From assembly GCA_946187865.1 (NCBI GenBank), contig CAMHST010000001.1:1-64000 (forward strand): DNA of 64,000 bases, in the 5' to 3' direction. How positions within the stretch are numbered: the stretch's first letter is position 1; every line of letters starts with the position of its first letter. Shown here in pieces: positions 17,128 through 47,234 of this stretch. The stretch comes from an uncultured Bacteroidales bacterium (lineage in GTDB: Bacteria; Bacteroidota; Bacteroidia; Bacteroidales; UBA932). Position numbers and translations under genes: made by a program. The notes below the pieces were generated by a model. The model was not told where the DNA came from and ran no database searches. It saw only the letters and a list, made by a program, of their open reading frames with translations.

Positions 17128-17143
17128 TGCACAAGATTGGTTT

Positions 17144-24674: not shown

Positions 24675-27600
24675 CTACTTCCTGGGTTTGTAACTAGGAG
24701 AGGCGGAGTTCCAGCGGGGATCGCCAATGTCGGCCTTCTTGAGGTCGGCGTCGGTGAGCACCAGATTGAACTCGGCGGAACCGGTGCAAGGATCGGCCTC
24801 CAGGACGGCGCCGCCCTGGATGGCGGTGGCCTGGTCGATGGCGCCTCCGAAGAAGCCTTCACCCACGTTGAAGAAGTAGTTCCCCTCCATCACGGGCACC
24901 GTGGCACCGCTCTTGGCCAGAATGGTCTTGCCGGTGAGGTTCAGGAAGAGGTTCTTCTTCACGTTGTACTTCTGGGGAGCATTGGCGCAGGAACGGACCC
25001 AGAGCAGGCCGTTTCCGGCATCGATGGAGCAGGAGGCGAAGGTGTTGTTCACGATGGCGATGTTTCCGGCAATCTCCTTGTCGCAGCGGATGAAATCACG
25101 GCCGCCGTCGTAGAAGGAGTTCTTGGAAACGTTAATCACGTCATAGACGCCCTTGCGGATATCAATCATTCCCTGGCCGGTGCCAAAGCCGTGGACCAGG
25201 TTCTTCTGGAAGTCGAACAGTTCCACCCGGGAGTCGGCGCCGTTGCCGTAGAAGAGGCTCTTGTTATAGCCGAAGATGTCGCAGTCCACGATTTGGATCT
25301 TGTACAGCTGGGTGGCTTCGGCAATCTCGAAGGCGTTGCCCAAGGCCTTCTCGGAACCGTTGAACTTGATGTTCCGTGCCTCGAAGGTGGTGGTGCCCAC
25401 GCCCAGTTTGAAGCCGCCGATGATCTCTACGTTGCCGTTACCCTGCAGGCGGAGCGGAGCGATGAGACTGATGACGCCGCCTTCGGTGAGTTCGCGGAGG
25501 TCGTAGGTGCCCGCCTTGAGGGTGATTCCGGTCTTGCCGGCATCCAGGGCAGTGCCCAGTTCGGCCACCGTCTTCACGGTAACGTCGGAAGAGATGGTGC
25601 CCGCGTTGCGGTTCCAGGTGCCAGCGCCCACGTTGGAGGCCAGGCAGAGGGCGTCTACCAGGGTGAAGTCATCATTGGCGGCATCCCGCACCGGGTCAGA
25701 GGAGAGGATGGCGCCGCCGTTGGCGGTGGCCATCTCCTGGGTAATAAGGCCCGTCCAGAACTTCTCGGCCGTGCAGTTCCAGAAGAAGTTGCCGGCCATA
25801 TAGGTGGGAACGGTGATTCCGGCCGCCTTGGAAAGCAGGTTGTTCTCACCGTTCTCGTTCAGGAACAGGTTATTCTTCACCTCGTAGCTTTCGGGCGTGG
25901 AACGCACGTAGAGCACACCGTTGCCGTTGTTCAGGGTGACGCCGCTGAAGGTGTTGTTCACGATGTTCACGGCTCCGGTGACACGGCCCGCGTCGGCCCG
26001 GATGAAGTCACGGCCGCCCACCACGGTGTTGTGCTGGAAGGTAATCACCTTGTAGTCGCCCTTGCGGATGTCAAGGGTTCCTTGTCCGCCGCCCAGTTCT
26101 CCGAAGAAGTTGCCGGAGAATACCAGGGCCTGGAAGGAGGAGCCTTCGGCATTGCCGTAGAAGACGCTCTTCTTGATATTGGTGACGTGGCAGTTCCGGA
26201 GCGTGAGGTTGTTCACCACGGAAGCCGCGCCCACGTTGAAGAGGTTGTTGGCCCCGTCTCCTTCAATGACCAGGTTCTCGATGAGGATGTTGCCCAGCTC
26301 CCCTTCGGCCAGGTTCAGCTGGTTCACCTTGAGTACGGCGCCCTCCTCACTGCCCAGATGCATTCCGGCCGTGAGGGTGATGGCGGCGGCGGAGAGGTCA
26401 TACTCACCCGCGGCGAACTTGATGTCCGTCTTGCCGGCATCCACGGCGGCGGTGAACTCGTCCACGCTGGAAACGGTGATGGAAGCGCCCTCACTCACGG
26501 GCACGCTGGCGGGATTCCACTTGGAGGCACCGGCGCCCAGGCTCATGACCACAGCGTTGGTAAGGGTGTAGTTACCGCTGGCGGCATCCTGGAAAGGATC
26601 GTTGGTGAGCACCACGCCACCACCGTCCACGGCCAGTTCCGCATCAATGCAGCCGGTGTAGAACTTCTCGCCAATGTTGTACCAGACGTTCTTCTTCATC
26701 TTGGGCTTCATGGCGGCGGTACGGCCGCTGATGGAGTTGGCGATGTTGGCCACGATGTTGTAGGAAACCTCGTACACGGAAGGAGTGGCCCGTACGCAGA
26801 ACACACCGCCGGCATTGCCGGAATCGTTCAGGTTGTTGAGCGTGTTGTGCTTCACGTACACGGCGTCAATGGTACAGGGAGCGTCAATGCGCAGGAAGTC
26901 GCGGCCGCCGGTGACGGTGCTCTCTTCCAGCGTGAAGCTGCCGTAGGTACCGTTTCTCAGATCCAGCACGCCCTGGCCGGTACCGTGGTTCACCACCTCC
27001 ATACCGGAGAAGAGGATTTCGCCGATGTTGAACTTGTCGGCCGTGTTGGAAGCGTAGATGACACTCTTGGTAAAGCCGTCCACCACGGTGTTCTTCACCG
27101 TTACGGATTCGGCAGTAACGCCCTCGGCGTTGTCCAGGTTCAGGAGGATGTCTCCACCGCCAGCCTTCACAGTGAGGTTCTCCAGCGAGAAGCTGCCCAC
27201 CTGTCCGCTGAGCTTGAAGCCGCCCAGGAGTTCGGCACCAGGCTGTCCCTTGAGGGAGAGCGGAGCCGTTACGGTGAGGCTGCCTGCCAGGTCGTAGCTG
27301 CCGGCGGCCAGCGTAATGGCTTCCTTACCGGCTGCGATGGCGGCCAGCAGGGCGTCCACGTTGTTCACCACCAGTTCGGAGCCCTCTTCGCCGCCGCCCT
27401 TGGGCAGTACTGCGAAGGCGGCCACGCCTGCAGCCGATTCGGTGTTGTAGATATCATCCTTGGAAGGATTTGCATACACTTCCACCTTGTAGCTGCCGGC
27501 ATCCAGCATACCGGTAGTGGTACCGCCGATTACGAACTGGGTGCCTTCGGAGACTGCACTGGTCTTGCCGTTGAAGACTACGGAATAGCCGCCGGCACTC

Positions 27601-29816: not shown

Positions 29817-29829
29817 AGTATTCAAGGGA

Positions 29830-31644
29830 TTAGAGATTGTCATAGCCATAATCGTTCTTGATGTAGCCCTGACTGTTGGTCATGGTATCGTTGAAGATGG
29901 GCCAGAACATATGCTGCTCGGGATCTCCCACATAAATGCCGTCGATCCTTTCCTTGTAGAATCCGGTCTTCTTGGCGTCGTCATATTTGTTGACGTAACC
30001 GGCAGAGAGTTCGTATCCGGCGGGCGCTTTCTCGCCGGGAGCCAGGAAGAGAATGTTCATCGACAGGCCGTCGTCAGAAGTGGCATAGGCGATGTCTCCG
30101 CCCAGAGCGGCATAATCGCCCTGCAGGTCGCGGAGGGCAAGCATTTCCTCCTTGGCGGCATCCAGGCTGCTCTTCAGGCGATTCCAGCGGATGAGGTCCG
30201 CCTTGCGGAGGAACTCGCCGCAGAACTCCAGGGCACGCTCATTCACCACAGCTTCGAAGAAATCCTCTTTGCTGCCCAGCGTGGCCACATAGTCCTCTGC
30301 GGCATCTTCACCACAGGCACGGGCACGCACTTCCTGAAGATAGCGCTTGGCGCCGGAGGGACCATTGAGCTCGTTCTCGATCTCGGCGGCCATCAGGAGG
30401 ATATCGGCATAACGCATCACCACGGGCTTGATTCCGTCGTCGTTGCCGCCGGTATAAGGCTGGGCGTTCATCCATTCGAAACGATATTTGCCGAAGTACC
30501 ACTTACCGATACCGGCAGGCTCCAAAGAATTGTCTTTGAGCCACTTGTAGTTTACGCAGGTAACGTCTCGGCGTTGGTCGCCGGCGCTGTACTTGAAATA
30601 CATGGTGGGAAGCGGACCAGCATCACCGCCCCGGGATACGCCGTTGGAAATGCTGGCGCCTTCCGAAGAGATGGCATAAGTGAAGTTCCAGCGTCCGCGG
30701 CCGGAGCCGAAGGGAATCACGTACAGGGTCTCATAGGCGGGGCCCGCCGTGAGGTTGTCCATATTGTTCATATTGTACCAGTACGTCCGGAAGTCCTTTT
30801 CCAAGGAAGCTTTTCCGTAGGCATCCTTCAGGTAAGCCAAGGCCTTGGGATAAAGGACGTCCTTGGAGAGTTCCGGATCGGAGGAGAGGCGGATGGTACC
30901 CAGGTCGCCGGTGCCCACCATGCCGTCGTCCGGACGGATGGCATAACCGGAAGCCGCCAGGGCAATACGGGCATAAAGACCCTCCGCAAACACCTTGTTC
31001 ACGCGGTCCGTGCGGGAAGTGGCAGCCGTAGCGCCAGGGTAAGGAAGGTAAGGTATAGCCTCTTCCAGGTCGGCAAGAATCTGCTTGTACACCACGTCGC
31101 GGCTGTCCTTGGCCGCATAGATGGTGGCCGATTCAAGCGAAGAGAAACGGGCGGGGACATCTCCCCAGGCCTTGGTGAGGTCGTAGTAGATCATGGCACG
31201 AAGAGTGAGGGCTTCGCCCAGAAGATACGCCATGTCGGCATGTTCTTCCACATTGCCGTATTCACGGATACCTTCGATTACCAGGTTGGCACGCTCGATG
31301 CCCATATACATCAGCGGGAAGGGGCCGTTGCTCAAGTTCAGCTGACTGTTGTTGGGCAGACAGTCGTAGCCGGAAATGTCCGACTTGCCGTCCCCTTTTT
31401 TGAAGGTGTTGTACCACTCGATATCAGTATTGTGTCCGTACCAGGGCAGGAAACGGCCGCGGTAGGAGTTCACCTCGCAGAAAGCCTCGGTGATGCCGAA
31501 GATGGTACCTTCCGTAAGGGAATAGTTGGAATAGACCGTGGCCGAATCAAAAGCCGACGGAGATTCCGTATCCAGGAACTTCTCGCAGGAAACCGCCAGG
31601 GCGGCGATCATTACCGCAGAAAGAATATATGCAATCTTTTTCAT
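29830..31644 (-). CDS. SusD/RagB-family nutrient-binding outer membrane lipoprotein
   Basis: AVSCEKFLDTESPSAFDS, AYLLGEALTLRAMIYYDLTKAWGDVP, VMRYADILLMAAEIENELNG, VVNERALEFCGEFLRKADLIRWNRL. Confidence 0.96.
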   Translation of the reverse strand: MKKIAYILSAVMIAALAVSCEKFLDTESPSAFDSATVYSNYSLTEGTIFGITEAFCEVNSYRGRFLPWYGHNTDIEWYNTFKKGDGKSDISGYDCLPNNSQLNLSNGPFPLMYMGIERANLVIEGIREYGNVEEHADMAYLLGEALTLRAMIYYDLTKAWGDVPARFSSLESATIYAAKDSRDVVYKQILADLEEAIPYLPYPGATAATSRTDRVNKVFAEGLYARIALAASGYAIRPDDGMVGTGDLGTIRLSSDPELSKDVLYPKALAYLKDAYGKASLEKDFRTYWYNMNNMDNLTAGPAYETLYVIPFGSGRGRWNFTYAISSEGASISNGVSRGGDAGPLPTMYFKYSAGDQRRDVTCVNYKWLKDNSLEPAGIGKWYFGKYRFEWMNAQPYTGGNDDGIKPVVMRYADILLMAAEIENELNGPSGAKRYLQEVRARACGEDAAEDYVATLGSKEDFFEAVVNERALEFCGEFLRKADLIRWNRLKSSLDAAKEEMLALRDLQGDYAALGGDIAYATSDDGLSMNILFLAPGEKAPAGYELSAGYVNKYDDAKKTGFYKERIDGIYVGDPEQHMFWPIFNDTMTNSQGYIKNDYGYDNL

Positions 31645-31656
31645 GTCAGTAGCGGA

Positions 31657-34600
31657 TTAGAAGGTGAGGTTGAGACCAGCCACAAAGCCGATGCTCTTGG
31701 GATAGGCGGAATAGTCCACACCGGGGGTAAGCGGGGTGGCGCGGCGGGTATCCACTTCCGGATCATAGCCGGAATACTTGGTGAGGCAGAACAAGTTGGT
31801 TCCGGTCACGTAGATACGGGCACGGCGCAGATGCACCTTCTGGGTAAGTTTCTCGGGCAAGGTATAGCCAATGGTCACGCTCTGCAGTCGCAGGAAGGAC
31901 GCGTCCTCCACGGCCCAGTCGCTGAAAATGGCGTTGCCCACGAAGGGAGCCCACATGGTCTTTCCGGCATTCACCTGCCTGAGCGTGGCGGCATCCGTAA
32001 TCATCTCGCCGGTGTTCCAGTCGATGTTGGTCCAGCGCTTGTCCACGTCCATCACATTCATGAGGTTGCGGTTGGAGAATTTGCGGGAAGATGTGAATTC
32101 CACTTTGTTGGCGTTATACACCTGGTTGCCGATCATGAAGTTGAAGTTGGCGCTGAAGTCGAAACCGTAGGCGTATCCGCTGAAGTTGAAGCCGCCGGTG
32201 AAGTCCGGGCTGGCGTTGCCAATGACAGTGCGGTCGGCCACAGTGACCTTGTTGTCCTCACTGCCGTCCACGTTCTTGAACTTGGGCGCGCCGGGAATCA
32301 TGTAGTTGGCGCCCAGGATGGCGGAGCAGTCCACCACACCCTCGTTGAGCACCCACTTGGAGCCGTTCCAGGTGAAGTCATCGGGGGTGTACATGCCGTC
32401 GCTGACATAGCCGTACATATTGCCCATCGGCTGACCCACTTCCACCACGTAGTCGTCACCAATCTCGGTGGAAGCCCAGTAGGACTGAGCCGTAATGCGC
32501 TTCAGGCCGCCCAGGCTCGTCACCCGGTTCCTGTTATAAGCGATGTTTCCGCCGATATTCAGGGAGAAGTCCTTTTTGGAGATGACGGGTGCGTTCAGGG
32601 TGAGTTCGATACCGCGGTTGCGCGTGCTGCCCAGGTTGCGGTACTGGCTGTCATAACCGGAACCGGTGATGGGGAAATTGATGAGCAGGTCACGGGTGTC
32701 GTTCTGATACACTTCCACGCTACCGCTCAGACGTCCCTGGAACAGGCCGAAGTCCAGACCCACGTTATGGGTGATGGTGGTTTCCCAAGTGAGTTCAGGG
32801 TTGTTCATGATCTTGCCGGCCATCCAGTAGTTGGTGCTTTGGCTCAACCACGAGGTGACGGTGGAACTGAACTGCTTGACAATCTGCCCGGAAGGGATGT
32901 TGTTGTTACCGGCGGTACCAAAGCTGTAACGAAGCTTGAGCTGGTCCAGCCAATTGCGTGTATTCTCCATGAAGCTCTCGTTGGAGATGGTCCAGGACAC
33001 GGCGGCGGAGGGGAAGAAGCCCCAACGTCTGCCGCGGGAGAACTTGGACGAGCCGTCGGCGCGCAGCGTGGCGCCTACGGAGTAACGGTGCTTGTAGTCG
33101 TAATTCACCCGGCCAAAGAAGGAAAGGAGCTTGTCGTCCGGATCGAAGTAATTGTTGGTGGAAGCAGGCGTACCGGAAGACATAAAATTCCAGGCCATGG
33201 GCGCATCGTAGGATGCGTTGAGGCCGTCCACCATCATGGTGAGGAGGTTGCTCTTGGTGATGGTCATCTCCTCACCCAGCAAAAGGGTAAGGTTGTGGTC
33301 TTCGTTGTTCAGGATTTCCGCAAAATCATAATTGAGCGTATTGGTATTGCGGTATTTGGTCCGGAAAGCCTCTTTGTGCTGATTGGATACGCCTGTCTTG
33401 TCAGTGGAGTTGTTGGCCACATAGTAGGTGGTCATCCCGTAGAAACGGTCGTCGGTCTGGCTGTATTTCTCCAGGCCGCCCTCAATCTTGAGGTTCAGGT
33501 TCTTGATGATCTTCCAGTTGAAGGCCGCGTTGGCGTTCCAGGTGGTACGGATACGGCGGGAATCGTTGTCGGATACGGAGAGCAGCGGCGGAGCGTTGTC
33601 ACCGTAGTCCTGCTCCTCGTCCACACCCTGGATGGTGGAGGCGATGGGAATGGGGGTATAGGAAACAGCGTGCTTGAGACGACCGTTGCCGGAGGTGGTA
33701 CCCGTATCGTTGATGCCATTGGCGCCGCCACCGCGCACATTCACGCGGGAATATCGGACGTTGGCGTCAATAGAAGTATTCTCCGAGGTCTTGAAATTGG
33801 CCTTGAAATTCAGGTTGTCACGGCTGTAGGTGGAGCCCACCATGATGGCCTGGTCGCCCATATGGGCATAGCCCAGAGTCCAGTTCACGCTGTCGCTGGA
33901 ACCGCTTACGGAGAAATCGGCCGAGAATGTGCTGCCGGTATTGCCGAACACCGCGTCAATCCAGTTGTTGGTGGCCATGCCCTTGTACAGGTCGATATCG
34001 GAGAAATTGCCGAAATACGGCAGGTAGTAAGAGCTCAAGTTGTCCCTCACCACGCCCAGCTCGTACTGGAACTTCACGAAGTTCTCGGCGTCCATCGCGA
34101 CGATGGCATTCCGGTTGGCCATGGTCTTGAGGCCGTAGTAGGTGTTGAACTTGACCGAAATCCGCTGGCCTTTCTCGGCGCTCTTGGTGGTGACGATAAC
34201 AACACCGTTTGCGCCGCGGGAACCATAGATGGCAGTGGAGAAAGCGTCTTTCAGAACGTCGATGCTCTGGATCTCGGACGAAGGGATATCGTTGATGGAT
34301 TCCACCGGGAAACCGTCCACAATATACAGCGGAGCGCTGTCCTGGGTGATGGAACCGCCGCCGCGGACGCGGATCTTGATGTCGGCGTCGGGATCACCTT
34401 CCGTGGTGACGACGGACACACCGGCCATTTTTCCGGAGAGCGCCTGCGACACGGTGGTTACCGGCTGCTCGGTGAGTTTGTCACTTCCTACGGACGACAC
34501 GGAGCCCAGCAGGTCGCGGCGCTTGACCGTCGCGTAACCCACTACGACAACCTCGTCCAGGAAGGTCTGGTCGGCGGCAAGGACCACGTTGATTTCCGTC

Positions 34601-34866
34601 TGACCCGCAATGGCGACGGTCCGGTCCGCCAGTCCGATGAAGGAGAACACCAGATTGACTGCATCTGCGGGGACCACGAGCGAATAGTCGCCGTCCAGTC
34701 CGGTGATGGTTCCCACGGTGGTGCCCTCTACGAGGACGCCCGCACCGATGAGCGGTTCACCGTTTTCGTCCGTCACGACACCATGGATGGTAGTCTGTGC
34801 GGAAAGCGACCATGCAGTGCCCAGGCAGAGAAGCGCAAGAATGAGTTTCTTTACTGGATTTTTCAT
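31657..34866 (-). CDS. SusC/RagA-family TonB-linked outer membrane protein
   Basis: N-terminal carboxypeptidase-D-regulatory-like domain (GVVTDENGEPLIGAGVLVEGTTVGTITGLDGDYSL), VVVGYATVKRRDLLGSVSSV, RGGGSITQDSAPLYIVDGFP, SusC barrel. Confidence 0.97.
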   Translation of the reverse strand: MKNPVKKLILALLCLGTAWSLSAQTTIHGVVTDENGEPLIGAGVLVEGTTVGTITGLDGDYSLVVPADAVNLVFSFIGLADRTVAIAGQTEINVVLAADQTFLDEVVVVGYATVKRRDLLGSVSSVGSDKLTEQPVTTVSQALSGKMAGVSVVTTEGDPDADIKIRVRGGGSITQDSAPLYIVDGFPVESINDIPSSEIQSIDVLKDAFSTAIYGSRGANGVVIVTTKSAEKGQRISVKFNTYYGLKTMANRNAIVAMDAENFVKFQYELGVVRDNLSSYYLPYFGNFSDIDLYKGMATNNWIDAVFGNTGSTFSADFSVSGSSDSVNWTLGYAHMGDQAIMVGSTYSRDNLNFKANFKTSENTSIDANVRYSRVNVRGGGANGINDTGTTSGNGRLKHAVSYTPIPIASTIQGVDEEQDYGDNAPPLLSVSDNDSRRIRTTWNANAAFNWKIIKNLNLKIEGGLEKYSQTDDRFYGMTTYYVANNSTDKTGVSNQHKEAFRTKYRNTNTLNYDFAEILNNEDHNLTLLLGEEMTITKSNLLTMMVDGLNASYDAPMAWNFMSSGTPASTNNYFDPDDKLLSFFGRVNYDYKHRYSVGATLRADGSSKFSRGRRWGFFPSAAVSWTISNESFMENTRNWLDQLKLRYSFGTAGNNNIPSGQIVKQFSSTVTSWLSQSTNYWMAGKIMNNPELTWETTITHNVGLDFGLFQGRLSGSVEVYQNDTRDLLINFPITGSGYDSQYRNLGSTRNRGIELTLNAPVISKKDFSLNIGGNIAYNRNRVTSLGGLKRITAQSYWASTEIGDDYVVEVGQPMGNMYGYVSDGMYTPDDFTWNGSKWVLNEGVVDCSAILGANYMIPGAPKFKNVDGSEDNKVTVADRTVIGNASPDFTGGFNFSGYAYGFDFSANFNFMIGNQVYNANKVEFTSSRKFSNRNLMNVMDVDKRWTNIDWNTGEMITDAATLRQVNAGKTMWAPFVGNAIFSDWAVEDASFLRLQSVTIGYTLPEKLTQKVHLRRARIYVTGTNLFCLTKYSGYDPEVDTRRATPLTPGVDYSAYPKSIGFVAGLNLTF

Positions 34867-34899: not shown

Positions 34900-36759
34900 T
34901 TAAAGTTTTACATAAGATCCTTTTTCATTCCCACCGGCAACGATGTCCCTGACCAGATAGTGCAGGTACATCTCCAGGTTGGTATACCGTCCCTTCGGGT
35001 CGATGGTGCAGGCAGCACCGTCGGCGGCACTCCCCTTGTCCATCCCCCAGGCATCTTCCACGGCATCCGGAATACCGTCGCCGTCGGAATCCTTCACGGC
35101 AGCGAGTTCCCGGGCCGATGCCTCGTAGGCAGGCCAGCCGCCCACATCCGTCTGAGAGTCAATCAACCCGCCGGTAGAGCCGTTAGAACCTGTATAAGTA
35201 GCATTCCTATTACGAACCTCTTTGGTCACACGTTCATCCACACGATCCCGGTCAAGGCTGGCGCCGGCATACTTAAGCACTTGTTCATAAGCATCATAGG
35301 CACCATGAAGCCAGAGGGAGGTCTCCAAATCGGGATAGCCGAAGCGGGAAGTGGAACGGATGGTGTTTATTACCGACACCGACGCCGTAGTGCCCTTCCA
35401 GTTGTCTGAAGACATGTCACCAGCAGCATCGGAACTGAAATCCATCACATTGCCATTCAGGAAAAAATGACCGGGAACGATGGTAGAACTGCCTGTTTTC
35501 TTGGTGCAGTTCTCACAGGCCTTGGTCCAGGGATCGATAAAACGGACCTTCCCGGCCCCCGTTGCAGGACCCGGTTTATAATAATTGTTTATAAGGTTGT
35601 ACCGCCTGAACTCGTTGTTGTCATTGGCGCTTTCGCCACCATAAGTACTGTTGTCCCCCCAGTTGTAAATGACATTGTTTATCAGGCTCACAGGTCCCTT
35701 GAGCGTAGAAACATAATCGTGGTCAAGGCGAGGGTTCCGGCTGTCGTGATGAGCAAGCAGATTGTGATGATAGGTGGCATTGGTTCCCCCCCAGATTCCG
35801 CCGTAACCATGCTTCCCGTCTCCATGTACCGAATTGCGAAGACTCTCCGAAAGGATGCTCCATCCCAAGGTAAAGTTGGTCATGCCATAAAAAGACCCGC
35901 ACTCGTCCGTGCTCCAGCTCAGGGAACAATGGTCAATGATGACATCATGAATGTCATTGTCTCCTGTATAGAGGTTCATGGCATCATCCACTGTCTTCTT
36001 CTCATCCCCCATCCGGCAACGGATGTAGCGTACAATCACGTTGCTGGCATTGATTCTGAGCGTATAATTCTTCAAGCAGATACCCTCCCCCGGAGCTGTC
36101 TGGCCTGCTAAGGTAACATCTCCGTTCCGGACTACCAGGGTGGATTCCAAGGGAATCACACCTGCCACGTCGAAGACGATGGTCCGTGCGCCTTTTTCTT
36201 CCAACGCCGCCCGCAGGGAACCGCTGCCCTTGTCGTTCAGGTTGGTCACATGGATTACCTTTCCTCCCCTGCCGCCGGTCGTGTACATGCCGCCGCCCTC
36301 GGCGCCGGGGAAGGCGCGGGCCACGCCGTCTTCTTCATCGGCGGGAATCTTGAAGTCCTCATAGGCGACGGTCGGGCCGGGCGTGGGATTCACCGGATCC
36401 GCGGTACCCGCCGTGGTGGCATCCAGATAGGTGTAGGCCGATGTCTGTTTGTCGCTGTTCACGCTCCGCACACCGAAGCGGTAGGCAGTAGCCTTCTTCA
36501 GGCCCGCAACCGTGGCATTGCGCTTGGTCTCGCGACCGTCCAGGGACACGCCCTCCCCGGTAAGCGTCCACTCATAGGCCAGGGCGCCTTCCACCACATC
36601 CCACTGGAACGTGAGGGATGTTTCCGTGGAGCCGTGCAGCTTGAGCCCGGTGGGAGCAGCGGGCGGGTTGGAAGCAGGCGTCACAGGGTTTTCCGGAGTT
36701 TTTCCGCAAGCCCACAACACAAATGCAGCCGCCAAAGCCCATGTGAAGTTAATTCTCAT
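34900..36759 (-). CDS. Fn3-pectate lyase-like lipoprotein (PL1-type)
   Basis: RAFPGAEGGGMYTTGGRGGKVIHVTNLNDKGSGSLRAAL, TLAGQTAPGEGICLKNYTLRI, HCSLSWSTDECGSFYG, HHNLLAHHDSRNPRLD. Confidence 0.88.
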   Translation of the reverse strand: MRINFTWALAAAFVLWACGKTPENPVTPASNPPAAPTGLKLHGSTETSLTFQWDVVEGALAYEWTLTGEGVSLDGRETKRNATVAGLKKATAYRFGVRSVNSDKQTSAYTYLDATTAGTADPVNPTPGPTVAYEDFKIPADEEDGVARAFPGAEGGGMYTTGGRGGKVIHVTNLNDKGSGSLRAALEEKGARTIVFDVAGVIPLESTLVVRNGDVTLAGQTAPGEGICLKNYTLRINASNVIVRYIRCRMGDEKKTVDDAMNLYTGDNDIHDVIIDHCSLSWSTDECGSFYGMTNFTLGWSILSESLRNSVHGDGKHGYGGIWGGTNATYHHNLLAHHDSRNPRLDHDYVSTLKGPVSLINNVIYNWGDNSTYGGESANDNNEFRRYNLINNYYKPGPATGAGKVRFIDPWTKACENCTKKTGSSTIVPGHFFLNGNVMDFSSDAAGDMSSDNWKGTTASVSVINTIRSTSRFGYPDLETSLWLHGAYDAYEQVLKYAGASLDRDRVDERVTKEVRNRNATYTGSNGSTGGLIDSQTDVGGWPAYEASARELAAVKDSDGDGIPDAVEDAWGMDKGSAADGAACTIDPKGRYTNLEMYLHYLVRDIVAGGNEKGSYVKL

Positions 36760-37925
36760 CGTTTCTCGTATTCCAGTGACGCCCAGATCAGGGGGCCGAT
36801 GCCCTTGGGATCGTTGGACCTCACCCGTTCATGGATATAATAGTCGTAGTCTCCCCTGCGGTTGTCCTTGCCGCCCAGGCCGGCCACCTCGCAGCACTGG
36901 TTCAGGTTCACCAGGCCGTCTTCTACCGTAACGAAGGTCTTGATCAGGGAATCGTAGCTTTGCAGGGCCGCTTCCCGCCCCCGCAGGAAGCCCAGGCGGG
37001 TGCCCTTGAGCCAGGCGTAGGTGAACATGGCGCTGCAGGTGGCTTCCAGGTAATTGCCCTCGCGGTAGGGCTGGTCCAGCACCTGGAACCACATGCCGCT
37101 GTCGTTGTCGGCATAAAGGGGAAGCACCTGATACACATTGTTCAGGATGCCGATCAGGGCGTCTTTATAGGGGCCGTCCGGCAGGATTTCCGCCACATCT
37201 ACCAGGGCCATGCAGTACCAGCCCAGGGCACGGCCCCAGGCGTGGTCGCTCTGCCCCGTTTCCGGATTGCACCAGAACATCTGGTGGGAGGAGTCCCAGG
37301 CGTGACGCAGAAGCCCCGTGGCAGCGTCGTACGTGTGGTTGTACACCGTGGTGAACTGGTGTACGATATCCCCGTAGTTCCGCTCCCGCTCCAGGCTGTC
37401 GGCCACAAAGCGGCGGGTGTATTCTGCATAGAAGGGCTGGGCCATGTACAGGCCGTCCAGCCACATCTGGTCCGGATACACCTGCTTGTGCCAGAAACCG
37501 CCTTCCGGGGTGCGGGGCTGGTCCAGGATCTGGCTGTAGAGGCTGTCCATGGCAGCGCGGTACTTCTCCTTGCCCGTGATGTCGTAGAGCTGGAAAAGGG
37601 TGCGGCCGGGGCAGATATGGTCCGTGGAGAAATTGGACTTCTTGTACTTGTAAATGACGCCGCCATCGTCGATGATGGCATCGTACCAGGCATCTACATA
37701 ATCCAGAAGAGAGTCATCGCTTCCGTCGGCGTGGCAATAGACATCCAGGAAAGCCTTGAGCTCCAGGCCGGTGGTGTAATTCCATTTGAGATTGCCCTCC
37801 TGGCCGTCCAGGTACGTGGCTTCGGGGCAGCGGACCATCTCCGAGCGCACGACCTCCTGGAACAGCGGAGCCTTGGCCGTACAGGCGGTCAAGGCGGCAA
37901 GCAGTATGACAAGGCCTCTTTTCAT
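36756..37925 (-). CDS. GH105 unsaturated (rhamno)galacturonyl hydrolase, lipoprotein
   Basis: GGFWHKQVYPDQMWLDGLYMAQPFYAEYTRRF, FWCNPETGQSDHAWGRALGWYCMALVDV, EATCSAMFTYAWLKG. Confidence 0.92.
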   Translation of the reverse strand: MKRGLVILLAALTACTAKAPLFQEVVRSEMVRCPEATYLDGQEGNLKWNYTTGLELKAFLDVYCHADGSDDSLLDYVDAWYDAIIDDGGVIYKYKKSNFSTDHICPGRTLFQLYDITGKEKYRAAMDSLYSQILDQPRTPEGGFWHKQVYPDQMWLDGLYMAQPFYAEYTRRFVADSLERERNYGDIVHQFTTVYNHTYDAATGLLRHAWDSSHQMFWCNPETGQSDHAWGRALGWYCMALVDVAEILPDGPYKDALIGILNNVYQVLPLYADNDSGMWFQVLDQPYREGNYLEATCSAMFTYAWLKGTRLGFLRGREAALQSYDSLIKTFVTVEDGLVNLNQCCEVAGLGGKDNRRGDYDYYIHERVRSNDPKGIGPLIWASLEYEKR

Positions 37926-39568
37926 CGGTTGTCGTAGGGATTCCATTTAATTCCGTCTTCCTTCTGGTACATCACCTTCTCGAAGCTGTAATCCGAAAGG
38001 TCTTTTGCCGACAGTTTATGCGCCCAGTCCGCCCTGGGGCCGCGGGCGCCGGGGCCCGTACTGCCGTATTCGGCATAGAAGGAATTCTTGCGGGTATTGG
38101 GTTTCCCCTCCTTTTCCCAGTCGTGCCAGCCTTCCGGCACAATGTGGCTGCCCAGTTCGCAGCCGATGAAAACGGTCTTGGCAAAAGAGCCCCAGGGGCG
38201 GCCCAGATAGCATTTCGTAACGCCCGGGGCAGCCGTAAGTTTGCAGTTTTTGAACACATAGCCGTATTTCTGGCCTTCCAGGGTAGAGGCGGCCGTGACA
38301 TAACTGTCTTTTTTGCTGTGGATGGTGCAGTTCTCGAAGTAGGCGATGCTGGTCCCGAAAATAAAGTCCGTGGTACCCTCTATGTAGCAGTCCAGGAAAT
38401 AGTTGCGCTTGATGCCGCCGTTCTTTCCATAGCGGCCGTAGGTGTACAGGGTGTCCTGGTTGCCCAGGAAGCGGCAGTTCTTGAAAAAGAGGAAATCCCC
38501 GTCCGTGAACACGGCCACAGCCTGGCCGATCTCCTTCCCTTCCCCGGCGGAATTCTCGAAGGCCAGGTTCTCGAAGGTTACATAGCTGGCGTGGATATAG
38601 ATGGTGGCGCTGCCGGAAGTGCCGATGTCGAAATTGCGGCCGGGCCAGAATTTCCGGGCATATTTGTCGAAGGTGATCAGGGTGGTTTCCGGGTCTTCTC
38701 CCTTGAAATGCACGCGGAACTTGCTGTGCGGGATGGTCACCTCTTCCTTATATACCCCTTTCCGGATGTACACCGTGGTGATTTGCTCGTGGCTGTAGTC
38801 CGGGATGGCGTTCACCGCTTCCTGGACTGTCATGTAGTCTCCGTGGCCGTCGGGCGACACTACGATATCGTAGCGGACCAGATGGGCGGCAATCTCCGGG
38901 AGCTGTTCCCGGATCTTGTCACAGACCAGTTCCGTTATCTTGCGCGCACCGCTGGCAACCGTGTGGGTGTTGTCGTCTTTGCCGGTGGAAATCATGAAAA
39001 AGGGACGCGAAGCGGCATCTCCCAGGCCTTCCAGCCAGTTGAGACTGGCCGTGGTGATGTCCAGCAGCGGAATGCCGAACTCTGCGGCTACCTGCTTCAT
39101 GGCATCGGGATAGTCCGTGTGGCAGTTGCGGTCCAGCCGGCCTTCCTTGAACCAGCGGCGGGCCACCGGCGTGAGCAGGACCGGATGCGCACCTGCATCC
39201 AGGGCCGTACGGACGAACAGGCGAAGATTCTCCTGATAGGCCCCGTAAGCGGGAGCATAGCGGGCAGGGTCGTCCTGTTTGGCATCGTTATGGCCGAACT
39301 GGATAAACACATAGTCCCCTGCCTTGAGATTGGCTTTCACCTTGTCCCAGAGGCCCAGGTCGATGAAACTCTTGGTGCTTCGGCCGTTCTGGGCGTAATT
39401 CACCACATCGATGCCGCTGTCCAGGAAATTGGGGAACATCATGCCCCAACCCCGCTCCGGATTGCCGCCGGCGAGGTTTTTCTCCGCCATGGTGCTGTCT
39501 CCCATCAGGTGGATGGTGAAAGAACTGGCAAGCAGCCAGATTCCAATCAGGTAAAGGAGTTTTCTCAT
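37922..39568 (-). CDS. Fused rhamnogalacturonan acetylesterase (CE12-like SGNH) and pectin methylesterase (CE8)
   Basis: N-half: LMGDSTMAEKN…GWGMMFPNFL, FIQFGHNDAK; C-half: VSPDGHGDYMTVQEAVNAIP, VAVFTDGDFLFFKNCRFLGNQDTLYTYG, YIEGTTDFIFGTSIAYFENC, YLGRPWG. Confidence 0.93.
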   Translation of the reverse strand: MRKLLYLIGIWLLASSFTIHLMGDSTMAEKNLAGGNPERGWGMMFPNFLDSGIDVVNYAQNGRSTKSFIDLGLWDKVKANLKAGDYVFIQFGHNDAKQDDPARYAPAYGAYQENLRLFVRTALDAGAHPVLLTPVARRWFKEGRLDRNCHTDYPDAMKQVAAEFGIPLLDITTASLNWLEGLGDAASRPFFMISTGKDDNTHTVASGARKITELVCDKIREQLPEIAAHLVRYDIVVSPDGHGDYMTVQEAVNAIPDYSHEQITTVYIRKGVYKEEVTIPHSKFRVHFKGEDPETTLITFDKYARKFWPGRNFDIGTSGSATIYIHASYVTFENLAFENSAGEGKEIGQAVAVFTDGDFLFFKNCRFLGNQDTLYTYGRYGKNGGIKRNYFLDCYIEGTTDFIFGTSIAYFENCTIHSKKDSYVTAASTLEGQKYGYVFKNCKLTAAPGVTKCYLGRPWGSFAKTVFIGCELGSHIVPEGWHDWEKEGKPNTRKNSFYAEYGSTGPGARGPRADWAHKLSAKDLSDYSFEKVMYQKEDGIKWNPYDNR

Positions 39569-41034
39569 TGCTCTTTTCCGTTAACGATTACATGCTTGAA
39601 CACCACCGGCTCCGCGTAGTTGATCTCTACGTCTTTATCCGAGCTGAACACACAGTCTGTGAAGGAAACGCCTTTCAGGGGCAGTTCCGGCAGGCCGTTG
39701 ATATAGATAGCCTGCTGCGCGCCGCTGCAGACGATATCACTGAAACGGAAGTCCCGGAATTCCGGAGTGGTTTCGTCTACGGGCATCAGGTCTGCCTGGA
39801 CATCCTTGTCCATGTCCGTCGCGGCCACCCCGGCATAGTAGAGGTTGAATACCACCCCGTACGTGACGATGTCTTTCATATAAATATGGTCGCACCAGAT
39901 GTTCCGGACCAAGCCGCCCCGGCCCCGGGCGCTTTTGAAGCGCAGGCCTACATCCGTGCCGATGAAGCGGCATCCCGTGACCCAGATGTTCTCCACGCCG
40001 CCGGACATCTCGCTGCCAATCACAAATCCGCCATGGCCGTGGTACACGGTGCAGTCGCTGATAATCAGGTTCTTGCAAGGGATGCCATGCCTGCGGCCGT
40101 CCGCGTCCTTGCCGGACTTGATGCAGATGGCGTCGTCTCCGACATCGAAACTGGACCCGGTGAGCAGCACATTCTCACAGGCGTCGATATCGATCCCGTC
40201 CCCGTTGGCGGAATAATGCGGGTTACGGACCGTTATATCTTTGATGGTGACATGTTTGCAATAGAGCGGGTGCAGGTTCCAGCAAGGCGAATTCTGGAAC
40301 GTGACGCCTTCCAGCAGAACCCGCTCGCAATTTCTCAGGCTCACCAGCACCGGACGCAGGAAGGTCTTGATTTCCTGCTCGTCCAGGGAGGGATCCGGGT
40401 AGTTGAGCGAGCCGGCGGTGGCCCGGGCCTTGGCATAACCCGCATCCGGATACCAGACACTGCCGTCTTCGGAGAGCACGCCGCCCCTTTTCAGGATTTC
40501 CTTCCACAGGTCCTCCCCGACCTTGCGGCGTTTCACTTCCCGCCAGTATTCGCCGCTGCCGTCGATGATGCCCGATCCGGTAATGGCGATATCCGTTGCT
40601 CCCTCCGCATGGATGGGAGAGAGGCAACGGCGTACGTCCAGGCCTTCGAAATTGGTGTCGATGATGGGATACAGGGACTGGTCCGGGTCAAAGACAATGA
40701 CGGCATCCTTGTCCAGGTTCAGGCAGATATGGCTTTTGAGGCCGATAGGGCCTGTGCGCCAGATGCCTGCGGGAACCTGCAGTGTACCGCCGCCTTGCTC
40801 CGAGAGCGCGGCAATGGCGTCTGCAAAGGCCTGGGTGTTCAGCGTAACCCCATCCCCTACGGCGCCGAAACCGGCCAGGGAAACCTGCCGCTGGGGAATG
40901 GAGGGGCGCTCCACCCGGGGCATGTCAAAGGGGACGCGTTGATACAGTTCCTCTTCCGCGGAGGAAGAAGAACCCGCGCAGGCTGTTACAAGCAGGGATA
41001 CTGCAGAAAGCAGGAAAGTTCCGAGTTTATTCAT
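39565..41034 (-). CDS. GH28 polygalacturonase, lipoprotein
   Basis: GDGIDIDACENVLLTGSSFDVGDDAICIKSGKDADGRR, GHGGFVIGSEMSGGVENIWV; lipobox LLVTACAGSS. Confidence 0.95.
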   Translation of the reverse strand: MNKLGTFLLSAVSLLVTACAGSSSSAEEELYQRVPFDMPRVERPSIPQRQVSLAGFGAVGDGVTLNTQAFADAIAALSEQGGGTLQVPAGIWRTGPIGLKSHICLNLDKDAVIVFDPDQSLYPIIDTNFEGLDVRRCLSPIHAEGATDIAITGSGIIDGSGEYWREVKRRKVGEDLWKEILKRGGVLSEDGSVWYPDAGYAKARATAGSLNYPDPSLDEQEIKTFLRPVLVSLRNCERVLLEGVTFQNSPCWNLHPLYCKHVTIKDITVRNPHYSANGDGIDIDACENVLLTGSSFDVGDDAICIKSGKDADGRRHGIPCKNLIISDCTVYHGHGGFVIGSEMSGGVENIWVTGCRFIGTDVGLRFKSARGRGGLVRNIWCDHIYMKDIVTYGVVFNLYYAGVAATDMDKDVQADLMPVDETTPEFRDFRFSDIVCSGAQQAIYINGLPELPLKGVSFTDCVFSSDKDVEINYAEPVVFKHVIVNGKEQ

Positions 41035-41065: not shown

Positions 41066-41073
41066 CAAATATA
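41066..41073 (-). promoter_or_regulatory. -7 box TATATTTG for the pectin operon
   Basis: TAnnTTTG 32 nt upstream of the GH28 start on the minus strand. Confidence 0.6.
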
Positions 41074-41086
41074 AAACTAATTTCCG

Positions 41087-41112
41087 ATTTTCCGTGCACG
41101 TGCACGGAAAAT
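41087..41112. promoter_or_regulatory. Perfect 26-bp palindrome, candidate LacI-family operator (ATTTTCCGTGCAC|GTGCACGGAAAAT)
   Basis: Sequence equals its own reverse complement; central C|G; between divergent lacI-type gene and operon, at the -33 side of the operon promoter. Confidence 0.8.
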
Positions 41113-41158
41113 TTTTCAACGAAATAACAAACCGGCCTTCCAACGCGCTGCAGGGCAT

Positions 41159-41175
41159 CCGTGCCCGTGCACGAA
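41159..41175. promoter_or_regulatory. Second, imperfect operator copy (CCGTGCCCGTGCACGAA)
   Basis: Matches CCGTGCaCGTGCACGgA from the palindrome at 15/17 positions; just upstream of the lacI-type promoter. Confidence 0.55.
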
Positions 41176-41212
41176 TTTTTAAAATATTTATTGGAAACCT
41201 TGATTTTATTCG

Positions 41213-41220
41213 TACATTTG
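41213..41220 (+). promoter_or_regulatory. -7 box TACATTTG for the LacI-type regulator
   Basis: TAnnTTTG 22 nt upstream of ATG. Confidence 0.55.
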
Positions 41221-41242: not shown

Positions 41243-42298
41243 ATGAGCGCCTCAGAAAAAATAACCATCCACGACATCGCCCGTCTTAGCGGCCTTTCCA
41301 AAGGAACGGTAGACCGCGTGCTCCACAACCGCGGAGAAGTCTCCAAGAAAAGCTACGAGAAAGTGATGGCTGTAATCAAGGAGCTGGGATACGAACCCAA
41401 CGTATACGCCTCCCTGCTGGCCAAGCAGCAGAATTACAGCATCGCCATCCTTCTCCCCCGCCCGGAGCCGGGCTCTTACTGGGAACTGGCCACCAGCGGC
41501 ATTGAAAAGGCGGCCGAAGAGGAAAAGCAGTTCGGCATTTCCACCACCCTCTATACTTACGACGAATACAGCGCGGAATCCTTCCGGGAAGCCTGTTACC
41601 AGGTACTCTCCCAAAAGCCCTCCGGCGTTGTGATCGCCCCCATGTTCCAGTACGAGACCCAGGTGTTTGTCCAGGAACTGGCAAACAGCCACATCCCATA
41701 TGTCTATGTAGACACCAAACTGGACACGCCCGGCGGTTATCTGGCCTTCTACGGCCTTCCCGCCTACAAAAGCGGCTACCTGTGCGCCTCCATCCTGCTG
41801 ATGAAAGAGAAAGTGAAGGAACTGCTCATCGTCCGCGTAACGCGGGACAAGGAGCGCCAGAGCGACCCTACAGTCCAGCGCAGGGCCGGCTTCCAGGACT
41901 ATATCCGGGAACACAATCCGGGCTGCACCCTGCGCAGCATCTTTGTCAGCCCCACGGACCCGGCCGCCACAGACGAAGCCCTCAACGCCTTTTTCTCGGA
42001 ATTCCCGCAGGTGAGGCACATCGTCATGTTCAATTCCCGCATTCACCTGATCGTCCCCTTCCTGGAACGCCATCCCGCCAAAGACATGTGGGTGGTGGGA
42101 TTCGACAACCTGTCGGCCAACGTGGCCGCCCTGAAAGAAGGAACGGTGACCACGCTCGTCGCCCAGCACCCGGAGCTCCAGGTCCAGAAGGCCATCCACG
42201 CCCTGTCGGAGTTTATCGTCTTCAAGCGTAAGCCCGCCGTGGCCGACAATCACATGCACATGGACCTACTCACCCGTTATAATCTGGAAGACTATTGA
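41243..42298 (+). CDS. LacI-family transcriptional regulator
   Basis: N-terminal HTH ITIHDIARLSGLSKGTVDRVLHNRGEVSKKSYEKVMAVIKELGYEPNVYASLLAK, followed by periplasmic-binding-protein-like sensor domain. Confidence 0.96.
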   Translation: MSASEKITIHDIARLSGLSKGTVDRVLHNRGEVSKKSYEKVMAVIKELGYEPNVYASLLAKQQNYSIAILLPRPEPGSYWELATSGIEKAAEEEKQFGISTTLYTYDEYSAESFREACYQVLSQKPSGVVIAPMFQYETQVFVQELANSHIPYVYVDTKLDTPGGYLAFYGLPAYKSGYLCASILLMKEKVKELLIVRVTRDKERQSDPTVQRRAGFQDYIREHNPGCTLRSIFVSPTDPAATDEALNAFFSEFPQVRHIVMFNSRIHLIVPFLERHPAKDMWVVGFDNLSANVAALKEGTVTTLVAQHPELQVQKAIHALSEFIVFKRKPAVADNHMHMDLLTRYNLEDY

Positions 42299-42300
42299 TC

Positions 42301-43983
42301 ATGAAACGCTTGCTTCTCCTATTCCTGCTGCTTTCCGCCGCAGTGACCTCCGCCCAAACCCGATACAAGAATCCGGTGCTGCACCAGGACTTCTCAGACC
42401 CGGACATCTGCCGCGTGGGAGAAGACTATTATATGACGGCGTCTTCGTTCAACTGCTTCCCCGGCCTTCCCATCCTGCACTCGAGAGACCTGGTGCACTG
42501 GGAGCAGGTCGGCGCCGCCCTCACGGACTATCCCGGCCCGGGGTGGGACGCCCCGCAGGACGACTTCCACGGAACCGTCCAGCATGGAAACGGCGTCTGG
42601 GCCCCGTCTATCCGCTACCACGACGGCTGGTTCTACATTTTCTGCGCAGACCCGGACCGCGGCGTGTTCATGGTCCGGACCCAGGACCCCGCAGGCACCT
42701 GGGAAGCCCCTGTGTGGGTGGTCAAGGCCAAAGGCTTCATAGACCCGTGTCCGCTTTGGGACGATGACGGGAAAGCCTGGCTCTCCCATGCGCTGGCCGG
42801 CTCCCGCGCCGGACTCAAAAGTGTCCTCTACGTGGCGCCGATGGCCCCGGACGGCACCCGTCTCACCGGCCCCTCCCGGATCGTGTACGACGGACACCGC
42901 ACCCAGCCCACCATCGAAGGCACCAAACTCTACAAGCGGAACGGACTGTATTATCTGTTCGCCCCGGCAGGCGGGGTGGCCACCGGCTGGCAGACCGTCC
43001 TGCGCTCCGGCAATATCTTCGGCCCGTGGGAAGAGCGCGTGGTCCTGGCCTGGGCCCCCGGCACCATCAACGGCCCGCATCAGGGCGGCTGGGTGGAGAC
43101 TCCGTCCGGAGAAAGCTGGTTCCTGCATTTCCAGGACAAGGGCGCCTATGGCCGTATTGTTCACCTGCAGCCGATGACCTGGCGGGAAGACGGCTGGCCC
43201 GTGATTGGGGAAGACCCCGACGGAGACGGCGTGGGGCAGCCTGTTTCGGCCGGCATTATTCCCGTCCCCGGCCGCAAGGAAGCGGTTCTTTCCCGGCTCA
43301 ATGCCTATGGGACGGGCATGGAATGGCAATATCCCGCCGTTCCCTCCCCCACCTGGCACGCTACCCTGCCGGACGGGTCGCTGCGGCTCTATTCCGTTCC
43401 CCAGGACAAGCCCGGAGCCAATCTGTGGAACTGCCTCAACCTGCTGCTGCAAAAATTCCCGGCGGCACGTTTCACCGTCACGGCCCGGCTCCGCTTCCAT
43501 CCCAATCCGCAGCTGCCCGGAAAGGGCGAACAGGCCGGATTCATCGTCATGGGCAACGACTACGCCACGCTCCGGCTCACAGACACCGAGTCCGGCGCCC
43601 GGCTGCAGTATGCCGTGTGCCTCCAGGCTTCCAAGGGGTCTGCGGAAACTGTCACCGACCTCTGCATCCTGCCTTATGAGACCACGCCCCATACCCTTCC
43701 CTACGCCTCCGGCAATGTTCCGCCGGTAGTGTATCCTCACTGGCAGGAGGCTGTCCTGTGGGTCAAGCTGGAGGTGACCCCCCGTACAGTGGAAGGGAAT
43801 GTGCCGGATGCCGTCTGCCAGTTCAGCTTCTCTGCCGACGGAAAACGCTTCACCCCCGCCGGCGCGCCTTTCACGGCCAAACCGGAAACCTGGATCGGCG
43901 CCAAATTCGGCTTTTACTGCAACCGCCCCGCCCCCCGCAACGATGCCGGCTGGGTGGACGTGGAGCAGCTGCAAGTGAACTAG
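42301..43983 (+). CDS. GH43-family glycosidase (arabinosidase/xylosidase type) with C-terminal beta-sandwich
   Basis: YKNPVLHQDFSDPDICRVGEDYYMTASSFNCFPGLPILHSRDLVHWEQVG, WAPSIRYHDGWFYIF, KGFIDPCPLWDDDGKAWLSHA, GPHQGGWVETPSGESWFLHFQDKGAYGRIVHLQPM. Confidence 0.93.
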   Translation: MKRLLLLFLLLSAAVTSAQTRYKNPVLHQDFSDPDICRVGEDYYMTASSFNCFPGLPILHSRDLVHWEQVGAALTDYPGPGWDAPQDDFHGTVQHGNGVWAPSIRYHDGWFYIFCADPDRGVFMVRTQDPAGTWEAPVWVVKAKGFIDPCPLWDDDGKAWLSHALAGSRAGLKSVLYVAPMAPDGTRLTGPSRIVYDGHRTQPTIEGTKLYKRNGLYYLFAPAGGVATGWQTVLRSGNIFGPWEERVVLAWAPGTINGPHQGGWVETPSGESWFLHFQDKGAYGRIVHLQPMTWREDGWPVIGEDPDGDGVGQPVSAGIIPVPGRKEAVLSRLNAYGTGMEWQYPAVPSPTWHATLPDGSLRLYSVPQDKPGANLWNCLNLLLQKFPAARFTVTARLRFHPNPQLPGKGEQAGFIVMGNDYATLRLTDTESGARLQYAVCLQASKGSAETVTDLCILPYETTPHTLPYASGNVPPVVYPHWQEAVLWVKLEVTPRTVEGNVPDAVCQFSFSADGKRFTPAGAPFTAKPETWIGAKFGFYCNRPAPRNDAGWVDVEQLQVN

Positions 43984-44831: not shown

Positions 44832-47234
44832 TTAGAAATTGAAGCCCAGGGACACGTACGCGCCCACCTTTTTGGTGAGGGAATTCCAGTGGATGTCCAG
44901 TTTCAGGGGGCCCACTACCGAATCGTAGGCATATTCCAGGCCAGCCCCGAAAACATGTTCTCCCAGCTCGAAGGTGCCGAAATTGTCGAAATCATAAGCG
45001 GCATTGAAAATGGCGCTCACATAATGGCTTTTGCCGAACCCCAGACGGGCGTCCAGCCGGCCGATCATCATGTAGTTGCGCCGGAAGGCCCCGCTGGGAA
45101 TGCCCATGAAGGGCAACTGCTGCTCTACGTAGCGGCCGGCAAAATCACCGCCCATCACGTTGGAGTACACGATGGGGACATTCTCTCCCAGGATGTAACG
45201 GAGACTGCCCTGCGGGATCAGGGCGAACCGGCCCATAGCCACCGGCATCTTTCCGTCCAGGGATACGATGCCGAACAGGCTCCCCTTCTCCGGTGTGAAC
45301 ATCCGGGACACCAGTTCCGCCTTGATTCCGCCCGAGATGCCCCGGGTGGGGAAATACCCGTCGTCCATGGTCTCCATCCGGCCGTTGACAAAGAAGCTGG
45401 GATAGTCCCGGGTCACGGCCGCGGGATCATAGGCGCCCGACTCTTCGGCGGAGAGGATACGCTTGACCCGGAAATACTGGTTCCGGATACCGGCCTGCAG
45501 GTCAAAGGAATACCACTTGAGGTTGGACGCGTAGATCTCCTGGGTGTACTGGGTAAAGTCGATGGAGTAGATATTGCTCCCGGACAGGAAATTGTTGCGG
45601 TCGTTCCAGCGGAAACGGGCCGTGACATTGATGGTTGGCATCTTGGGCGCGTCGTAGGCATAGTGGAATTCCAGGAAGGGATTCACGCCGATCCGTCCGG
45701 TCAGGTCCAGGGAAGACCCGCGGACGGCGTGCGTGTTGAAGCCCAGATTAACCAGGATGGAAACCAGGTCTTCTGAATCGGCCCGAAAACCCAGTCCCAG
45801 CTGATGCAGAGGTCCCCGCTTGCACAGAATCCGGAGCCGGTAGGGCTCCATGGTTCCGCGAAGCTCATAGCTCACAAAGTCATAGGTGCCCTGCCCGAAG
45901 ACCCGCGCGATATCCTCTTCGATGGCCTGTTTGGTGACCACGGCACCAGGCTGTACGGCCAGCTTGGAGCGGATGAATTCCGCATCGGAGGCGGGCACGC
46001 CCACGATATCGATGTCGCCGATGACCACCGGCTTCACGTTCAGGTCTACCGCCTTCGGGGCCTGCAGTTGCCTCTTGGCGCCGCCCACCTTCTTTTTCAC
46101 GGCGGCAAGCTCGGCGGCGCTCGCACGGGCGGCACGGAGCCCCCGCTGGTACATGGTATCGATGGCAACGTCGTTGAAGCTGAGCATGTCGTACCCCGTA
46201 AGGTCCGGATGGATGCGCACGTCCACCGACTGGATATTCCGCTCGAAGGAGTCGTTGGACAGCATGTCTATCCCCTGCATCAGGATGTCTCCCAGGTTGT
46301 TGATCTTGTCCGCCCCGGGAGAGGAGCCGGAAAGGTCTATGCCGATGACAATGTCGGCGCCCATGTCCCGGGCGATATCCACAGGGAAATTGTTCCGCAT
46401 GCCGCCGTCGGCCAGGACCATTCCCTGGGTGCGGACCGGCGTGAACAGGCCGGGGATGGACATGGTGGAACGAAGGGCCAGGTTCACGGAGCCGCTGTGC
46501 CAGATCTTGGCCTTGCCGGAAGCCATGTCCGTGGCCACGCAGGCGAAGGGAATGGGGAACTTGAAGAAATCGGTGGAATCACTGTAGCCTACTGTCCGGG
46601 AATTGATGATCTGGCTCACATTCTGCCCGTACACGAAGCCGGAGGGAAGGCTGCCCATGAGGTTGTCTCCGAGGATCCGGTCTATGGAGCGCGCCTGCTC
46701 ATCGTCGGCCCGAAGGTGCAGGAAACGGTCTTCCCCGTTGGAAAAAGGCATATCACCCGCCACGAAGGATTTGTAATCGTCTGTCCGGTAGTAGAAAGGG
46801 ATGGATACCAGGAACTTCTCCTTGTACCGGATCCTGGAATAGGGGATGTATTCCCGCTGCACCTTGTCGCTCAGGGCCATGTCCCAGTTGATGGAATGGA
46901 TGAGCGTATCCAGATAGGCGGCGTCGTACCCCAGGGCGTACATGCCACCCAGCAGGCCGCCGATGCTGGTCCCCACCACCATGTCTACCGGAAGGCCATA
47001 CTCTTCGATGACTTTCAGCGCCCCCACCGTAGCCGCGCCCTTGGCGCCGCCGCCGGACAGGACCAGCGCCACCGTGGGCCGATGCTTGCGGATCTGGGCC
47101 ATCCGGTTGCGGATACTGTTCACAGCCTTGGCGTCTTTGGGATCCAGGCCGAAAGTGGAAGAAGAGCGGTCCTGGGCCAAGGCGGACAAGCCGGCAAGGA
47201 CAAGACAGGACAGCCAGGTGAGGACTTTTCTCAT
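44832..47234 (-). CDS. Patatin-like phospholipase with POTRA-like/Omp85-type C-terminal barrel
   Basis: VALVLSGGGAKGAATVGALKVIEEYGLPVDMVVGTSIGGLLGGMYALGYD; DGGMRNNFPVDIARDMGADIVIGIDL; long C-terminal barrel ending …YVSLGFNF*. Confidence 0.9.
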   Translation of the reverse strand: MRKVLTWLSCLVLAGLSALAQDRSSSTFGLDPKDAKAVNSIRNRMAQIRKHRPTVALVLSGGGAKGAATVGALKVIEEYGLPVDMVVGTSIGGLLGGMYALGYDAAYLDTLIHSINWDMALSDKVQREYIPYSRIRYKEKFLVSIPFYYRTDDYKSFVAGDMPFSNGEDRFLHLRADDEQARSIDRILGDNLMGSLPSGFVYGQNVSQIINSRTVGYSDSTDFFKFPIPFACVATDMASGKAKIWHSGSVNLALRSTMSIPGLFTPVRTQGMVLADGGMRNNFPVDIARDMGADIVIGIDLSGSSPGADKINNLGDILMQGIDMLSNDSFERNIQSVDVRIHPDLTGYDMLSFNDVAIDTMYQRGLRAARASAAELAAVKKKVGGAKRQLQAPKAVDLNVKPVVIGDIDIVGVPASDAEFIRSKLAVQPGAVVTKQAIEEDIARVFGQGTYDFVSYELRGTMEPYRLRILCKRGPLHQLGLGFRADSEDLVSILVNLGFNTHAVRGSSLDLTGRIGVNPFLEFHYAYDAPKMPTINVTARFRWNDRNNFLSGSNIYSIDFTQYTQEIYASNLKWYSFDLQAGIRNQYFRVKRILSAEESGAYDPAAVTRDYPSFFVNGRMETMDDGYFPTRGISGGIKAELVSRMFTPEKGSLFGIVSLDGKMPVAMGRFALIPQGSLRYILGENVPIVYSNVMGGDFAGRYVEQQLPFMGIPSGAFRRNYMMIGRLDARLGFGKSHYVSAIFNAAYDFDNFGTFELGEHVFGAGLEYAYDSVVGPLKLDIHWNSLTKKVGAYVSLGFNF

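Follow-up and report, generated by a model that had tools for sequence, protein, structure and literature searches.

A 26-bp palindrome as the probable operator of a LacI-type regulator at a pectin operon of uncultured Bacteroidales

A perfect 26-bp palindrome in the genome of an uncultured Bacteroidales bacterium, a gut organism of rumen type, is very probably a conserved DNA switch by which the adjoining LacI-type sugar sensor shuts off a long row of pectin genes. It lies in the window, that is, the whole 64-kb stretch of DNA that was analysed. According to the model as a whole, in which we have high confidence, the palindrome (operator 1, O1) and a second site (operator 2, O2) would both be operators of the regulator encoded from 41243; a dimer on O1 would repress the 16-gene operon, a dimer on O2 would stabilise it, and an intermediate of the pathway would bring about release. 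The model is built on sequence, gene content, conservation, site placement, regulon content and helical phasing, and from these we infer the binding, the repression, the looping, the inducer and the single transcript.

Gene content and operator sites of the window

The row consists of 16 genes, all on the minus strand from 41034 to 14557, and since the gaps between them are short or negative (the largest, before UxaC, is about 71 bp), it reads as one 26.5-kb operon that is probably a single transcript. The first gene encodes a GH28 polygalacturonase (39565-41034), followed by a GDSL esterase plus pectin methylesterase (37922-39568), a Glyco_hydro_88-family (GH88/GH105-type) unsaturated uronyl hydrolase (36756-37946), a PelZ-like pectate lyase with an fn3 domain (34900-36759), a SusC-type TonB-dependent receptor (31657-34866), a SusD-type lipoprotein (29830-31644) and a 1724-aa protein of DUF4957/DUF5123 repeats (24675-29849). 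Next come the uronate isomerase UxaC (23188-24603), the altronate dehydratase UxaA (21710-23188, start approximate), a UxaB-type tagaturonate reductase of the mannitol dehydrogenase family (20261-21700), an MFS transporter, probably for hexuronate (18806-20257), a DUF4861 protein (17944-18804), a KduD-type dehydrogenase (17144-17947), the KduI isomerase (16285-17187, start approximate), the PfkB-type 2-keto-3-deoxygluconate kinase KdgK (15232-16266) and, as the final gene, the KDPG aldolase KdgA/Eda (14557-15219). Read together, this gene set would take pectin to pyruvate and glyceraldehyde phosphate. In the window genome the whole pathway stands behind one predicted controlled promoter; in many relatives it is divided among a number of transcription units, every one of which has a site. 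The 1724-aa protein after SusD carries four DUF4957 and four DUF5123 matches as well as an fn3 match, and is perhaps a large surface glycan-binding protein.

Divergent from this operon, on the plus strand, is the gene of the 351-aa LacI-family regulator (41243-42298). Its N-terminal HTH matches PF00356 at 58.6 bits and its C-terminal periplasmic-binding-type sugar sensor matches PF13407 at 97.4 bits, both above the cut-off, and its C-terminus ends where the 3gbv core ends, with no evident LacI-type tetramerisation tail. A GH43 gene (42301-43983, plus strand) starts 2 bp past the regulator stop and is probably co-transcribed with it; in several relatives the GH43 gene on the regulator's 3′ side is on the opposite strand. 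Further downstream of the locus, 44832-47234 encodes an 800-aa patatin-like phospholipase family protein. A locus from another rumen MAG (L070) is about 88% identical to the window in DNA over 16 kb, and 98–100% identical in the 34.8–36.8 kb stretch; its regulator gene (L070:8001-9050 against window 41243-42295) has a DNA identity of only 57–72% and a protein identity of 62%, with the HTH and O1 unchanged. It looks as if the regulator alone has been replaced or is diverging fast, and as if the lyase gene has been recently exchanged.

Between the two divergent transcription units, positions 41087-41112 read ATTTTCCGTGCACGTGCACGGAAAAT, which is perfectly self-complementary over 26 bp with C|G at the centre, just as the first-pass annotation had described. 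It is the longest perfect palindrome of the window (the runner-up has 18 bp), and about 0.001 such palindromes would be expected by chance per 64 kb of uniform sequence. The 20-bp core of O1, TTCCGTGCAC|GTGCACGGAA, occupies 41090-41109. The likely -7 box of the pectin operon, TATATTTG, is of the Bacteroidetes type and was correctly placed in that annotation at 41066-41073 on the minus strand; it is 16 bp from the O1 core. O1 spans this promoter's -33 region, which also agrees with what had been proposed. For the regulator gene, the consensus points to a likely -7 box, TACATTTG, at 41213-41220 on the plus strand. A scan for sigma-70-type promoters gave counts equal to those of shuffled sequences and so carries no information here. 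The second copy of the palindrome, earlier placed at 41159-41175, does exist upstream of the regulator promoter, and its limits are now set at 41157-41176: in full O2 reads ATCCGTGCCCGTGCACGAAT, divided as ATCCGTGCCC|GTGCACGAAT, and its centre is 67 bp from that of O1.

The window genome (2.25 Mb in 95 contigs, 87% complete) was scanned by pattern searches. Among the matches listed, the exact degenerate core YCGTGMNCGNKCACGR occurred at O1 and O2 only, the rest being mismatched, and the 20-mer core with at most 3 mismatches was found at O1 only. Matches of low stringency elsewhere in this genome (2–3 mismatches) reached only about three times the numbers of the reversed control, and hence they were not counted as sites.

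Conservation, spacing and proposed action of O1 and O2

Orthologues were taken from 100 relatives and from 80 loci in named records, and more than 100 related regulators were compared. The 80 loci are nearly all from MAGs titled Bacteroidales or Bacteroidia, mostly of ruminant guts. One record titled Lentisphaeria (L087) is a 1.8-kb contig with a regulator of rumen-Bacteroidales type and the start of a GH28 gene, and is probably a case of binning contamination.

O1 was found in all 55 loci in which the orthologue faces a GH28-led pectin operon. Its pattern, CCGT..C|G..ACGG, is near-invariant (34 bits), and within it CGT, the central CG and ACGG do not vary. The usual form of O1 is asymmetric, TTCCGTGCAC|GGTAACGGAA, in either orientation, and the fully symmetric form was seen in the window, L070 and G312. 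Since the orthologous sites are mostly asymmetric, the window palindrome represents a symmetric variant of an operator whose two halves normally differ; that is to say, the palindrome that first drew attention stands as a real operator candidate, but its perfect symmetry is not conserved. O2 was found in 50 of the 55 loci with a weaker pattern (25 bits), and because about five of them have no detectable O2, this site is not essential everywhere. After clustering, two sites were present in 43 of the 48 pectin-facing clusters, and in the sister clade, which faces kdgK and not GH28, a single site was present in 48 of 49.

The distances between O1 and O2, for which the sites were located independently of spacing, are confined to 22–24, 33–34, 44, 56–57, 65–68 and 76–77 bp, so that neighbouring bands are about one helical turn apart. 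For the 44 regulators that remained after clustering at 93% identity, every spacing is within 1.9 bp of a 10.65-bp lattice, and the tree of these regulators requires at least seven changes between spacing bands. When one value was used per band, the phasing test gave P = 0.007 against uniform spacing, and P = 0.08 if the bands were also required to be at least 8 bp apart, so the support for phased spacing is good but not overwhelming. Such phasing suggests contact between two bound dimers, with looping at the longer spacings. The first-pass annotation had one regulator controlling both directions, possibly by looping; the looping part gains support from the helical phasing, but direct autorepression is unlikely in the window, because some 14 bp lie between the end of O2 and the likely -33 region of the regulator gene downstream of it. 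Autorepression there would be indirect, through the O1-O2 complex.

The proposed action of the two sites is as follows. In the absence of inducer, the dimer bound to O1 would occlude the minus-strand promoter at its -33 region, so that the pectin/hexuronate operon would not be transcribed. A second dimer, bound to O2 on roughly the same helical face, would make the first more stable, either by touching it or through a short loop: at a spacing of 22–24 bp the dimers would sit side by side, and at 44–77 bp a short loop would be formed. The dimer on O2 would also damp the regulator's own promoter. Judging from pathway logic, galacturonate, KDG or an unsaturated oligouronide is the candidate inducer, which would release both dimers.

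The two sites could also be independent, O1 repressing the operon and O2 controlling the regulator gene or acting as a decoy, with neither cooperation nor loop. This would agree with the absence of O2 from some loci and with the P of 0.08 under the most conservative null; moreover, in the 22–24 bp class O2 ends 14–17 bp from the regulator -7 box in most loci, so that it could repress the regulator directly. Against it are the fit of all 44 clustered regulators to the lattice, the repeated changes of band and the test against uniform spacing, and in the window the distance of O2 from the regulator -33 region makes direct occlusion unlikely. We therefore regard independence of the sites as doubtful. 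The cooperative reading can be put in a more far-reaching form, which is offered tentatively: a family of LacI-type repressors that are dimeric and lack a tetramerisation tail would regulate pectin loci from two operators, whose spacing would have shifted in nature in steps of whole helical turns, from 2 to 7, local cooperative contact and DNA loop being interchangeable states of one evolving switch; O2 is kept in loci with the SusCD pectin operon opposite the regulator (43/48 clusters) and absent in those with kdgK there (48/49).

Some LacI-family proteins act as activators, and the position of O2, well upstream of both promoters, would suit an activator or a dual regulator. The usual position of a repressor, however, is over the -33 region, and this is where O1 lies, at 13–17 bp from the operon -7 box (TAnnTTTG type) in 54 of the 55 pectin-facing loci. 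In addition, the LacI-type regulators of hexuronate use are described as local and mostly autoregulated (PMC4052901). Activation in place of repression is accordingly improbable.

The regulator and its regulon

The exact degenerate site was scanned across 300 congeneric genomes, 250 of which were also searched for the regulator. The site was present in 66 of the 300, and the reversed control pattern had no match in the same genomes among the matches listed. Among the 250 genomes, the regulator was found in 50 of 53 that bear the site and in 54 of 197 that do not (Fisher p = 1e-19, a value that is only a guide because the genomes are related). The first-pass annotation had named the occurrence of the palindrome at unrelated loci as grounds against its reading. 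This was not what was found. Of the 44 sites examined, 36 came from the exact pattern and the remainder had at most 2 mismatches; each of the 44 lies upstream of GH28, SusC, UxaB, UxaC, KduI, KduD, KdgK or the regulator, at a distance of no more than 150 bp. No site falls within a gene, and 23 are not adjacent to the regulator. Two more matches with 2 mismatches, in G053 (L033) and G100 (L032), have no adjoining pathway genes and for this reason were taken as chance.

Moreover, residue 32, which is beside the recognition helix and aligns with H29 of LacI, covaries with the outer bases of the half-site among paralogues: E or G goes with CC/TC, R with GC/GA, and S or N with TT. The covariation covers few clades, and relaxed matching brings exceptions, with the R-clades noisy; with this limit it links the regulator lineage to these palindromes. 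For R at residue 32 (the window regulator has E32), the predicted matching operator is TTGCGTGC. A paralogous clade with R32 (L020, L022, L023, L025, L165 and L166) has palindromes TTGCGTGCACGTGCACGCAA or TTGAGTGCAC... and faces a different, dehydrogenase-like gene, so it is a probable separate regulon of shifted specificity.

The three site-bearing genomes in which a full-length regulator was not detected (G002, G101 and G210) might suggest that a different transcription factor, and not the adjacent LacI protein, uses the site. Their assemblies, however, are incomplete (68–78% complete), and G002 has regulator fragments of 53–56% identity at contig ends. The co-occurrence of site and regulator and the covariation of residue 32 also argue against another factor, as does the form of the site itself, for an even palindrome of 16–22 bp with central CG is the hallmark of LacI-family operators (Ravcheev 2014, PMC4052901). 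The core has 20 bp, and C|G is at the centre in 55/55 O1 and 50/50 O2 sites, as located by a site finder that favoured the central CG without requiring it. A different factor is thus very improbable. In summary, the conserved position and sequence, the regulon content, the co-occurrence and the residue-base covariation support the earlier proposal that the LacI-type regulator serves the divergent pectin operon, and they indicate that O1 and O2 are the operators of this regulator.

An RNA hairpin or intrinsic terminator, suggested by the run of T that comes after the GC-rich palindrome on the plus strand, was rejected as the least probable reading of all, since the site is between two divergent promoters, where transcription from either is not expected, the same site precedes many unlinked pathway genes, and positions 7–9 are unpaired with 12–14 in most orthologues; the retention of CCGT, the central CG and ACGG while the inner stem is unpaired fits protein contacts and not stem pairing.

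Comparison with known systems

For Bacteroides, the LacI-family regulators KdgR, UxaR, UxuR and UxmR have been predicted for the use of uronates (Ravcheev 2013, PMC3878776). The first-pass annotation held that LacI control of a SusCD locus is less usual; this stands in so far as the full SusCD locus is included, but LacI control of uronate genes was already predicted in Bacteroides by that source. The Bacteroides UxaR, UxuR and KdgR systems share with the window the LacI family, the hexuronate catabolic genes, the even palindrome with central CG and autoregulation, and the 44 of 44 sites at pathway genes or the regulator are those of a hexuronate regulon of this type. In other Bacteroidales families, homologues at 29–40% identity stand beside uxaC, uxaB, kdgK and hexuronate transporters. 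The window locus differs from UxaR, UxuR and KdgR in having extracellular pectinases and SusCD in the same operon and two phased operators. Judged by these features, the window regulator appears to belong with the KdgR/UxaR/UxuR kind, the full pectin SusCD locus in the operon and the phased operators being less usual.

The ManR and AraR regulons of Bacteroides (PMC3878776) are alike in that a cytoplasmic sensor of a monosaccharide also controls a SusCD operon, but these regulators are of the GntR and NrtR families and respond to mannose and arabinose, not galacturonate. The pectin PUL of Gramella flava is also alike, with pectinases, SusCD, a full hexuronate pathway and an annotated hexuronate-operon repressor, exuR; in the part of PMC5306329 drawn on here, exuR is known by annotation only and its operators are not described. 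Under the proposed model, a whole polysaccharide locus including SusCD would be under a cytoplasmic LacI-type sensor and not a hybrid two-component system, and the sites provide a testable operator sequence for a probable master switch by which a large group of uncultured Bacteroidales from ruminant guts would regulate their use of pectin.

The arrangement of a main operator at the promoter and an auxiliary operator is shared with E. coli LacI (lac O1/O2/O3), whose repression depends on how the operators are phased along the helix; the repeat apparent in vivo is 11.1–11.6 bp (PMC1762422). E. coli LacI, however, is a tetramer, unlike the window regulator with no evident tetramerisation tail, and the spacing that was engineered for E. 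coli lac varies naturally in the pectin loci here. This natural series of phased spacings is therefore a ready set of promoters for asking whether dimeric LacI-family proteins loop DNA.
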